NCBI GenBank assembly: GCA_963930775.1
Contig: OZ005689.1
Location: forward strand, 5,456,001 to 5,520,000
DNA length: 64,000 nt
From: Cliona cf. orientalis
Taxonomy: Eukaryota > Porifera > Demospongiae > Clionaida > Clionaidae
Direction: 5' to 3'
A program made the translations under genes and the position numbers. Below are positions 17,570 through 63,861 of the stretch, piece by piece. Every line of letters begins with the position of its first letter. Within the stretch, counting starts at the first letter, position 1. The notes under the pieces are model-generated. The model was not told where the DNA came from. It did not search any database and saw nothing but the letters and a program-made list of their open reading frames with translations.

Positions 17570-20500
17570 TCAGAAAGAGAGATCTTCCTTCTTGAAGGAG
17601 AAGCGAGGGCTGTTCTTGGAGTAGAACTGAGAGAACCACCTCCTGTGTTTGACGATGAGCTCGTCCTCCCGGACAAGGAGTGGTTTGAGGGCATAACGCT
17701 TGTTGTTCCACGCTATCATATCCCGCTCCAACTGCAGCATAATAATAATTATTATTATTAGGCCACTCCAAATCAATTAGTTGTTTCTCATCCCCCCTTG
17801 ATTTCCGCCTGCATGTATTTCCATCAGCACCAGCACAATACAAAAGTATACCGCCTCGATTTTTTGGACTGCTGAACTTATGGTTTTGACGACCATTTCC
17901 CATCAAACTTGTGAATAAACGACCATTTCCAGCCGCCCGCCCGCATCAGTTTTTGGCTCAGAGGGGGATGAGAAACAATGAATTAATTTGGAGTGGCCTT
18001 ATAGAAGTAGCAGATTTGCATCTGAGACACGCTTCTATGACATTGTACCCTTTATTTCATATTCTATAAGTTTGTTTGAGCAGGAATTGGGGTGGTTATC
18101 TCGGCTAAGTTTGCGATAGTTAGCAATAAATTACTATCATACCAAACTTTCAAGCATGGCAAAACAGCAATAGCCCCAATAGAACAAATAAACGTGACGA
18201 CCTTTACCAATCAAAGGTGTATAGGCATTATAATACGTATAGCAGTCGAGTATCGTATATCCTACCTGAACATTGTATCCGTTGACCAACAGTCTGGTCA
18301 TGAATTTCGGAATCCACCAATCAGCATACACCGTCAGCAAGAACTTCTGGAGGAGCGGCTCCTGAGGGGTTAAAGTTCCAAAGAGGAGTGCACTGCCGAG
18401 GAAAGACTTAAACGTCATGAACACTAATCCGGGACCAACCTGTTGTATACATGTGTTGTGTATGTGTGTGCATGTGTGCATGTGTGTGTGTGTGTGTGCA
18501 CAGTATATGTACATGTATGTTCATCTACTAAGGACCGGGGCCATTACCTGCTCTGGCAACCTAATCATGGCAAGAAGCATGCAGAGCCACTTACTAGGTG
18601 CCTAGCTTGAGAATTAGGGGTAGTAGTAGGTACTAAGTATTAGCGGAGGGAGCTTGAGACATACAATGTCAGGGAACTTAAGCACTATACCCCAAGTGAT
18701 AATACATGTAGTATCTTCCATGCACAACTACTGCCGCTACAGCAAACTATATTAGAGCCTTTCGCCCCATGCATGCATACATGTATGCCTAAAGAGGTAC
18801 ACACATTCAATTAAAAGCACGATCTAGTAAGAATCAGGAAAAAAGGATTTAGTTCAAAGTTCTACAACTGACTCACCTGATCCGCAGTGACATTGAGATA
18901 GAGTGCTTTAACTTTTAGCCCCAAGATGATGTTGGTCAGCTTGACCGTCAAGCGTCCGATGTGAGTGGTCGGTGCGGGAAGGGCTTCCCACTTCGCCTCC
19001 CAGTGGTGAGTGTGGAGCTTGGCAGAGAGAGGCTCCTTGAAGTTGACCCCTGACCCAGAGGATACCCCCGCACTGTGCAGGTAGGTGAGGTGGGCCATGT
19101 CAGCGCCATTCTCTGGTATGTCCTGTACAGTGTGGATGTATGAGGGGATTAAAGGAAAGTTTATTTCATCTCTTCTCTCTCTCTCTTTCTCTCCCTCTTT
19201 CTCTTTCTCTCACTCACTCTCTCATTCTCTACCTCTCAAGTTTTCTGTCTCCCTCTCCCTCCCTCCTCCCTCTCTTTGTAACCCTCCATCTCTGTCTAAT
19301 TCTTGCTACATTGCTACATGTGCAATGTTACACTATACATGTACCTTCATTATAAAAATCTTACTTTGTACTCATTAACTTCAACTAAATATTGCAACCT
19401 TTCTTATATACTTCCTTTTGTGCATGCCTTCCCTCTCTGCTACTTAAGCTTCCACAGTCATACTGCACACAGACACTCAAGTACACTACATACACTTCCC
19501 ATGCTACCACTCTTAATCTGTTCCCTCCAAGTGCTCTCTCTCTCTTTCTCTCTCTCTTTCCATGCACAAGTATATTGCACACTATCCATAATGCATGCTA
19601 ACCTCAATGTGGGCATTAATCATGTGGGTGGAGTAGCCATGACAGATCCAACGACCGCTCTTGATCTTTTCAAACTGCTCCGGGAACCAGCCAGGGTCAC
19701 TCCCCTCTGCGTCGTACCACACCAGGATGATCCCGTTGGCCTCCATCGACGGCCAGACTTTGACCTTTGCCTGGGTGGGGATTTTCCCTTTGGAGTAGGG
19801 GATAGTGGTGCAGTGTCCCGTCTCTCCGTCGTACTGCCACCCGTGGAAGGGACACTCCAAACAGTTACCAATGACCTATACACATGGAGGGATGGATAAA
19901 CAAGGTACACATGATATGGTATGGACAAAATTAATGTCCGTCATTTTCCCCTCAAGTGTATAGAATTATCCAATACTATTACCCTGGATCTATACGCCAT
20001 AGGTGGGAATCCAATACATAGCCATTAAATTTATAATCATGTTGTGCATGCATGCTCTGTTTGATAATACGACTAATTCTTTCCGTAGAACGCTTATTGC
20101 TGCTAATTGGGTTTCATGTCAATTATTACAACCAGTACAACTATAGGCGACTACAGCAACCAGCAACCAATACTCTACTGCAGCAACCAATACAACCATT
20201 GGCAACTAGTACAACCACAGCAACCAATACAACCATTATAATACAACCATTTGGCGACCAGTACAACCATAGGCAACTACATTAACCAGTACTGGCTAAT
20301 AGCAAAAGCAACCACTACGATAACATTATAACAACTACATGTAGGTGTGTATAATAATATTGCTTTTGTGCAGACATGAATGCTGACTGTGCACATTTCA
20401 TGAGCTCGAGTCTTACATAAAGAAATAACCTGCTAATTGGATGTACACCTTTCCTCATGCACAACAAAATGCATCATTTGTAGTATCAGCAGTTGTTACA

Positions 20501-62904: not shown

Positions 62905-63861
62905 TCAAAAAATGTGCAGGTCCACTCTTTTGACATCTTCTATTCCATCGTCAAGTACTAACACAAACTGGGGAGAAAGAGAAAATAAAATTTAATCCAC
63001 AAGGTGCAAATGTGGTACTATAATTACAGCGGAAACTGTTAGAGGTTCCAACTTTCATGCATTTTGTGCACAGACTACTAGCTGCCATTATATCCACGAA
63101 AATTTAATAAGCACGATTGTATAATGTATAATGGGCATGGTCTTGTACATCTGTGAAAACTATATGCTTGGCTGTGAAATCGAACCCATCAAATCTTTCC
63201 TGCTATACAGTAGTTTAATAGGTTACTTACCATGAAAGCAAAGAACATGCCGAATGCGGAGAGGAAGTGCCAGACATCATGGTTATCATAGAAATCTAAC
63301 AGGGTACACTCCTTGTTCATCTCACGAGATTCAGCAGGAGTGACCTGAGACAAAGAGAGAAGTAGGGTGGTTAATAATTTATATCTCTCTCCCCCTCACC
63401 CAACTCTCTCTTTCTCTCTCCCTCTTCATCTTTAATGTTCACATAACCTACCCTAGTACCGCACAGCGGAAAACTTTGGTGAGGTTATCGCAAATTGAAA
63501 CTTCATGAAGGCCATTAATTTTGAGAACCATTTCACCAAATTTAATGCTCCCCAAACTTACCCGCTATACGGTATCTCCACTTCAAAGCTTCTGTGGTTG
63601 TAACTATCTTGCACATTGAAATATACTGTGTGTGCAGCTTCCTCTCTCCCTCTCTCCCTTACTCTTCCGCTTCCCACCCGTACCACATCAAGTACAATCT
63701 GGGTACTATTAGACAACAGTCACATGACATTGTACTTGTACACTTACACTCCAGTCCGTCACAGCTACACCCATGAAGAAGTAGAAGGCAGTGCCCCACA
63801 CCAAACCAATAACAACGGGTAGTATAAGGGCCAGCCAAGTCAATGGCTCCTTAAACCACAG
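62905..63861 (-). CDS. SID1/SIDT/CHUP-family transmembrane protein, gene D, last three exons
   Basis: Exons 63748-63861, 63231-63344 and 62905-62967 (stop TGA 62905-62907) correspond to exons 23-25 of gene B with identical lengths (114, 114, 63 nt). They encode the membrane segment after [20 protein letters not shown], then [20 protein letters not shown] with the two zinc-site histidines in [10 protein letters not shown], and the tail [19 protein letters not shown]. The gene continues beyond the right edge. Exon 23 resembles gene C; exon 24 differs from both B and C. Confidence 0.9.
63457..63574. mobile_element. 118-bp TACCGTATAGC-family MITE in gene D
   Basis: Begins TACCGCACAGCGGAAAACTT and ends AACTTACCCGCTATACGGTA, an inverted pair. 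Lies between exons 23 and 24 of gene D. Confidence 0.65.

Follow-up and report, generated by a model that had tools for sequence, protein, structure and literature searches.

The stretch of DNA described here comes from the sponge Cliona cf. orientalis (assembly GCA_963930775.1; 216,785,154 bases in 149 contigs) and comprises 64,000 nucleotides of contig OZ005689.1, hereafter C1 (C1:5456001-5520000; ‘the window’). It carries genes of the SID1 family standing head to tail on the minus strand—three complete (A, B and C) plus the 3' end of a fourth (D)—followed by two genes for a Neverland/DAF-36-type Rieske oxygenase (DES1 and DES2). We consider it probable that this arrangement reflects a lineage-specific tandem expansion of SIDT/CHUP-type genes abutting the sole Neverland-type locus found in the genome; the neighbourhood being a product of duplication and hitchhiking, not of selection for a pathway cluster. 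Upstream of DES2 lies a second copy of a SID1 last exon, a relic that records how the two families have moved together.

Exon models were built from comparison between the paralogs together with splice sites, and all of the gene models are computed predictions. Of the 21 introns that could be scored in all three complete genes, every one (21 of 21) had the same best-scoring phase throughout, and this common phase was then imposed; manual placement was used for the last intron and for intron 11 of A. A, B, C and DES1 had both start and stop codons checked, D its stop codon alone. Unless prefixed with a contig, positions are those of the window:

28862..42911, minus strand: SID1-A, 24 exons, 843 amino acids, the SID1 gene nearest to the desaturase; Pfam SID-1_RNA_chan, E 1.7e-123
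43184..53112, minus strand: SID1-B, 24 exons, 836 amino acids; Pfam SID-1_RNA_chan, E 2.1e-126
53520..62519, minus strand: SID1-C, 23 exons, 796 amino acids; Pfam SID-1_RNA_chan, E 3.4e-144
62905..63861, minus strand: 3' end of SID1-D, last three exons at 63861..62908 with the stop codon reaching 62905; runs off the right edge of the window

All three complete genes cover the SID-1_RNA_chan profile in full (1-594 of 594), and further pieces of D, from residue 188 onward, are found by tblastn outside the window, up to C1:5533.8 kb. The genes are tightly packed, the distance from stop codon to next ATG being 272 bp between B and A, 407 bp between C and B and 385 bp between D and C. A small exon 11 is found in A and B and not in C; the start of exon 23 in A is uncertain, at either 29640 or about 29610. 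Exon 13 of A also has a partial tandem duplicate about 100 bp upstream (38552-38496 and 38452-38378), and introns of A and of DES1 hold long (CT)n/(GA)n microsatellites (39684-40062 and 25308-25587, respectively).

Directly after SID1-A we find DES1, and beyond it DES2, the first three exons of which lie in the window with the remaining three to its left:

17570..27014, minus strand: DES1, Neverland/DAF-36-type Rieske oxygenase, 6 exons, 482 amino acids
27014-26758, 24219-23883, 19875-19603, 19122-18877, 18439-18266 and 17731-17570, minus strand: the six exons of DES1
418..11311, minus strand: DES2 exons 1-3 (11311-11055, 9197-8861 and 690-418)
C1:5455466-5455221, 5454771-5454598 and 5454276-5454115, minus strand: DES2 exons 4-6, left of the window

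The predicted DES1 protein has a Rieske domain at residues 145-227 (E 2e-20) followed by a KshA_C domain at residues 250-466 (E 5e-24), its best relatives of solved structure being 3-ketosteroid 9-alpha-hydroxylases (E 1e-35); an NCBIfam search gave 11 matches, all below the cut-off. DES2 has an open reading frame throughout, with 94.4% amino acid identity to DES1 (coding DNA about 95%). Each protein contains one C-X-H-X17-C-X2-H motif (residue 186) and one E-X3-D-X2-H-X4-H motif (residue 293), matching the forms given for the Neverland family, C-X-H-X16-17-C-X2-H and E/D-X3-D-X2-H-X4-H (PMC7609953). With both iron motifs, a KshA_C domain, an open six-exon gene and two copies, we rejected the idea of a chance Rieske look-alike. 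The likeness to the sterol C7(8)-desaturase Neverland/DAF-36 is one of motifs and domains; it extends to a steroid-acting KshA as the best solved relative, and what differs is the presence of two tandem copies that diverge mainly within residues 290-429. As regards the genes themselves, SID1 and desaturase alike, a chance resemblance is ruled out; their adjacency was weighed against chance in this one genome. An initial annotation of the window had named just this series—D, C, B and A head to tail on the minus strand, a desaturase directly after A and a second copy further on—and it is borne out by the exon models and the full-length Pfam matches (partial for D); the span that it gave, from 17570 to 63861, runs exactly from where DES1 ends to the first exon of D that is in view, and DES2 falls outside it. 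Seven open reading frames (ORFs) of the window searched against Pfam yielded a single weak TPR match, below the cut-off. A plus-strand ORF of 172 amino acids between DES2 and DES1 (16564-17079) shows a weak TPR_2 match, also below the cut-off (E 0.008).

Comparison of the two desaturase genes by blastn reveals that the similarity does not stop at their ends: window positions 19342-29148 match 50-12090 in ten pieces at 81-91% identity, and at its right-hand limit the block reaches into SID1-A.

28475-29148, no strand assigned: right end of the duplicated block, copy 1; takes in the SID1-A last exon (28924-28862) with some of the last intron
11383..12090, no strand assigned: right end of the duplicated block, copy 2, the partner of 28475-29148 (blastn, 81% over 744 columns); holds the SID1 relic
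11789..11851, minus strand: relic of a SID1 last exon, upstream of DES2 (DNA alignment, tblastn)
27094..28474, no strand assigned: insertion that separates SID1-A from DES1 and is missing in the block with DES2 (blastn gap); contains a high-copy repeat
33134..34151, no strand assigned: another copy of the inner repeat (27385-28403) in inverted orientation, lying within intron 15 of SID1-A, 98-99% identity

The relic differs from the last exon of A at 4 of 63 bases and retains both the reading frame and the stop codon (20 residues, then stop); by tblastn its region matches D with E 6.8e-7 and A with E 3.6e-4, and nothing else in window positions 1-18000 matches A-D at E<=1. We take the duplicated unit to have been ‘SID1 last exon - spacer - desaturase’. 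Because the block carries a SID1 last exon, the adjacency of the two families is older than the duplication of the desaturase; a possible alternative, in which a larger duplication was followed by loss of the SID1 gene body, would have the same implication. The spacer between SID1 and desaturase measures 477 bp in copy 2 and 1847 bp in copy 1, of which about 1381 bp is the insertion that copy 2 lacks. A query from within this insertion (27600-28300, 701 bases) has at least 41 genome matches at 98-100% identity, with the best 40 of 1711 candidates scored. By eye, the insertion (27094-28474) has terminal inverted repeats.

Synonymous (dS) and nonsynonymous (dN) divergence give these events a relative order. 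Between DES1 and DES2, dN is 0.025 and dS 0.160 by the NG86 method (0.027 and 0.136 by YN00), compared with a dN of 0.097 and dS of 0.361 between A and B (0.110 and 0.258 by YN00), which share 82% amino acid identity over 822 codons; for A/C and B/C, dS is above 1.3 by both methods. Judged by dS, then, the desaturase duplication is younger than the split of A from B. The amino acid differences between DES1 and DES2 are unevenly spread, with 18 of the 27 falling in residues 290-429, that is, in 140 of the 482 residues (Fisher p 3.4e-5, for a region picked post hoc). Here dN is 0.060 against 0.011 elsewhere, with dS similar (0.150 and 0.165), and in exon 5 alone dN reaches 0.091 with a dS of 0.121 (dN/dS about 0.75). 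Such a pattern may arise either from relaxed constraint or from a functional shift in the catalytic domain, two possibilities that the data do not separate.

A second kind of exchange is visible at the 3' ends of B and C, where the last two exons are far more alike than the rest.

B 43585-43472 and 43246-43184; C 54071-53958 and 53582-53520, minus strand: final two exons, near-identical between the two genes (DNA identity)

These exons share 98.2% and 93.7% DNA identity, set against about 61% for the whole genes, whilst the intron between them is mostly without a blastn match; dS is 0.08 across this tail compared with more than 1.3 for the genes as a whole. The pattern resembles that of gene conversion, here across the exons encoding the C-terminal zinc-site helix.

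Looking beyond the window, we see that the array is larger than the four genes of the initial annotation, a figure that we reject as its size. A search of the whole genome with the SID1 profile returned 41 exon matches among 48 candidates (one under the cut-off), all on the minus strand. Of these, 32 fall within C1:5.24-5.53 Mb, a locus at C1:1.32 Mb (T1) accounts for five and another at C3:8.55 Mb (T3) for four; as for all of our genome-wide profile counts, these are lower bounds, only the best candidates having been scored. The same profile had no match in 14 control genomes. Searches with two short patterns each found no SID1 relative in viral contigs (153 pattern stretches) or prokaryote contigs (53 stretches). 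Altogether there are eleven loci in the genome, nine of them lying on one strand within a ‘superlocus’ of about 290 kb (C1:5.24-5.53 Mb), two of the nine (S6 and S7) being seen in part. To the left of the desaturases these are, by tblastn:

C1:5384.3-5370.5 kb, minus strand: S5
C1:5337.4-5332.2 kb, minus strand: S6, C-terminal half only
about C1:5304.1-5300.2 kb, minus strand: S7, N-terminal part only
C1:5280.7-5266.1 kb, minus strand: S8
C1:5255.7-5240.8 kb, minus strand: S9

The corresponding search for desaturase exons found 12 matches among 12 candidates, which resolve into two six-exon genes, both of them between A and S5. With KshA_C, 2 of 2 candidates matched (1 of the 14 control genomes also gave a match, below the cut-off), and with the Rieske domain alone 6 of 10, of which four belong to DES1/DES2 and the other two lie singly on contigs C12 and C3; no further Neverland-type desaturase was thus found in the 216.8-Mb genome. 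Although the desaturases lie inside the span of the superlocus, SID1-A is their sole direct SID1 neighbour; no desaturase stands beside the five left-hand loci S5-S9 in either the desaturase or the KshA_C genome search, and we reject the notion of a desaturase partner for every SID1 gene. Among the left-hand loci there are instead GTPase-like, kinase/kelch-like and Ig-like ORFs as well as retroelements, identified by eye and not by profile; the interval C1:5.420-5.450 Mb was covered by the SID1 and desaturase searches only.

A tree with ultrafast bootstrap was calculated from 224 aligned columns of the membrane domain for SIDT1 and ten of the loci (all but S7). In it the genes of the superlocus together with T3 are set apart from T1 and SIDT1 (99), and three pairs are well supported: A+B (100), S5+S6 (99) and S8+S9 (100). 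Several rows were stitched together from tblastn pieces, leaving the branch lengths rough. S8 and S9 are 96% identical in their aligned core. Each has a GTPase-like ORF immediately upstream (L012, C1:5256013-5256450, for S9; L015, C1:5281077-5281514, for S8), and the two ORFs agree at 58 of their first 60 residues, which suggests that S8 and S9 may have been duplicated along with their surroundings in a single larger block.

Turning to what these proteins most resemble, our comparisons were made with chains of solved structure in the PDB, in the lists of which no CHUP-1 chain was found. The best solved relative is SIDT1, with E 1.9e-93 for A (317 bits) and 9.2e-123 for C (414 bits), whereas the SID-1 chains are much weaker at E 6.5e-20 (A, 74 bits) and 2.4e-33 (C, 119 bits); we take the former to be human and the latter to be from C. 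elegans, the listing naming the molecules only. In A, the sole stretch that matches SID-1 is the membrane domain (residues 461-843); C has a second such stretch, at a position that is not listed. The chain representing the extracellular domain of SIDT1 (8k1b) is matched by A (E 1.1e-18), by C (4.2e-25) and by the stitched cores of B (2.1e-10). Neither A nor C is closest to nematode SID-1, then, and these comparisons support regarding both as SIDT-like and far from it, sharing with the dsRNA (double-stranded RNA) channel a Pfam family and a resemblance in the membrane domain. A-C are of a length comparable to human SIDT1/SIDT2 and C. elegans CHUP-1 (TAG-130) of the CREST superfamily, and the likeness of A and C to SIDT1 runs across both extracellular and membrane domains. 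In this respect it is of interest that SIDT, insect Sil and TAG-130/CHUP-1 are described as having extracellular segments in common that SID-1 is without (PMC2395250).

The metal site is likewise retained. The positions of SIDT1 S559, Y562, H563 and D574, along with two C-terminal histidines (HD-x-WH), are all kept in A, B and C, and in the same alignment the zinc-site residues are kept also in D, S5 and T1; S6 is unreadable at these positions, T3 has Gly at Ser559, and S8 and S9 have Gly at Asp574, at an exon end. The two histidines appear in print as His798 and His800 (PMC10879482), the first of which we take to be His796. The zinc site of CREST proteins is made up of Ser559 and His563 on transmembrane helix 4 (TM4), Asp574 on TM5 and two histidines on TM11 (PMC10879482). 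Close by, the position of Glu555 is occupied by Gln in A and B, in contrast to the Glu of wild-type SIDT1, which is shared by C, D, S5, S8, S9, T1 and T3. What this would mean for activity is unsettled, as two papers conflict: one reports higher ceramidase activity with E555Q and notes Gln at this position in C. elegans SID-1 (PMC10879482), and the other cites E555Q as having reduced lipid hydrolytic activity (PMC11137008). At the position of the transmembrane cholesterol recognition amino acid consensus (CRAC) motif, human IYYMGRFK, A and B read LYHLHCWK, with Tyr and Lys kept, and C is without the basic residue. We give little weight to CRAC matches as evidence of sterol binding, the pattern being too frequent (7 raw matches in A, 6 in B and 10 in C, overlapping starts counted).

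Tandem gene clusters arise by unequal crossing-over, and the layout of this locus is a further case of that known kind: it has the head-to-tail copies, a block duplication with a truncated neighbouring exon and the conversion-like exchange between B and C, and departs from the usual array in that an unrelated enzyme gene is carried within the duplicated unit. We envisage that repeated unequal exchange would have generated the SID1 copies, and that one exchange, with its breakpoint in the last intron of the desaturase-adjacent SID1 gene, doubled a unit made up of the SID1 last exon, a short spacer and the desaturase, to leave two intact desaturases. The SID1 products would probably act singly, as in their relatives, as zinc-site, cholesterol-responsive CREST membrane proteins with ceramidase-like activity and a part in sterol handling, the Rieske enzymes probably being sterol C7(8)-desaturases that make 7-dehydrosterols. 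Where SIDT1, SIDT2 and CHUP-1 are concerned, nine loci in one 290-kb superlocus is a feature that sets the sponge apart.

A reading that overlaps with ours on layout and differs on function is that the SID1 genes serve uptake of dsRNA or other nucleic acids, or immunity, and have undergone an arms-race-like tandem expansion, with the desaturase an unrelated neighbour. The family does include the C. elegans dsRNA channel; immune-type families often expand together, and some of the ORFs seen by eye among the left-hand loci (GTPase-, Ig-like and kinase/kelch) are of immune-type appearance. Human SIDT1 and its extracellular domain are, moreover, reported to bind RNA (PMC10879482). Saying this, SIDT1 and SIDT2 score far above SID-1 against the window proteins, whose extracellular domain matches that of SIDT1, and several reports on proteins of this type also speak against RNA import: SIDT1 is described as transporting cholesterol and not dsRNA, SIDT2 likewise being without dsRNA transport (PMC5547113), CHUP-1, reported to be closer to SIDT, gave no RNA transport in S2 cells (PMC5714486), and both tag-130 in worms and, seemingly, the sil genes of Tribolium are dispensable for systemic RNA interference (PMC2395250). 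We regard this explanation as unlikely. An assembly artefact, in which some tandem copies are uncollapsed haplotypes, could be entertained for S8/S9, 96% identical in the aligned core, or for the roughly 95% identity in coding DNA of DES1 and DES2; yet the dS values of 0.14-0.16 (DES1/DES2) and 0.26-0.36 (A/B) are high for alleles, and the region upstream of DES2 has neither the insertion nor a SID1 gene body, making an artefact very improbable indeed.

The initial annotation had gone on from the physical clustering, which together with gene identities, order and strand stands, to a suggested shared role in sterol metabolism, and this second part fares less well. As a selected neighbourhood, SIDT/CHUP proteins would import or sort sterols for DES enzymes to convert into 7-dehydrosterols, and selection for co-regulation or co-inheritance would maintain the linkage. 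Cholesterol uptake or binding is reported for CHUP-1 and SIDT1/2 (PMC5547113, PMC10879482, PMC11137008), and ceramidase activity besides in the last two of these papers; A and B keep the CRAC-position Tyr and Lys, and the sole Neverland-type genes found sit here in a linkage older than their own duplication. Against this, only SID1-A borders DES1, and across an insertion of about 1.4 kb; the left-hand SID1 loci have other neighbours, by eye, and no desaturase; C lacks the basic CRAC residue in a motif that is in any case common, and near the two CRAC motifs earlier proposed for SIDT1 no cholesterol density was seen (PMC10879482). Nor was a further sterol gene of the ERG4_ERG24 (sterol reductase) family, the one such family searched for, found in the cluster, 6 of 7 candidates matching elsewhere: five exon matches close together at C4:8872849-8898617 and one on C5. 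A simple CHUP-1/DAF-36 link is also disfavoured because, where CHUP-1 is needed for cholesterol-dependent immunity, C. elegans daf-36 mutants lacked the infection susceptibility of chup-1 (PMC7195545). We therefore find a selected sterol neighbourhood doubtful, and more doubtful than a nucleic-acid role; it keeps some probability because SID1 and desaturase stood together before the latter was duplicated, both desaturase copies have open frames and the searches turned up no further Neverland-type gene, but none of the data require it. A bolder version, a nascent animal sterol gene cluster in which selection ties the CHUP/SIDT array to the sole C7-desaturases found, with a shifted substrate for DES2 and, in A and B, Gln at a hydrolase-altering site, we hold to be more doubtful again.

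Duplication with hitchhiking does have observations weighing against it. Adjacency predates the desaturase duplication, and dN well below dS in both desaturase copies is what a selected cluster would also show; random placement of the sole desaturase locus within 290 kb of 217 Mb has a probability of about 0.13%, for a pair that was picked post hoc; and support in the SID1 tree falls to 40-58 at its deeper nodes, so that descent from one local expansion is less than firmly established. On balance we still favour duplication and hitchhiking, and infer that the SID1 genes and desaturases would not have been selected as a unit.

In the open-access literature, searched at the level of listings and the starts of abstracts (10 of 27 and 10 of 3,013 papers for two of the queries), we found no description of a SID1-desaturase cluster, and the papers listed on sponge/Amphimedon SID-1 and sponge Neverland/Rieske proteins (among them PMC4967820) led no further. 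The main role of SIDT/CHUP proteins is disputed in the papers cited, be it RNA channel, lipid hydrolase or sterol transporter, and eleven SID1 loci, nine of them around the sole Neverland-type genes found, offer natural variation—Glu or Gln at 555, CRAC kept or lost—on which those roles may be tested. Likewise, an exchange that moved an enzyme gene along with its neighbour's last exon provides a datable mark of how long the two families have been linked.

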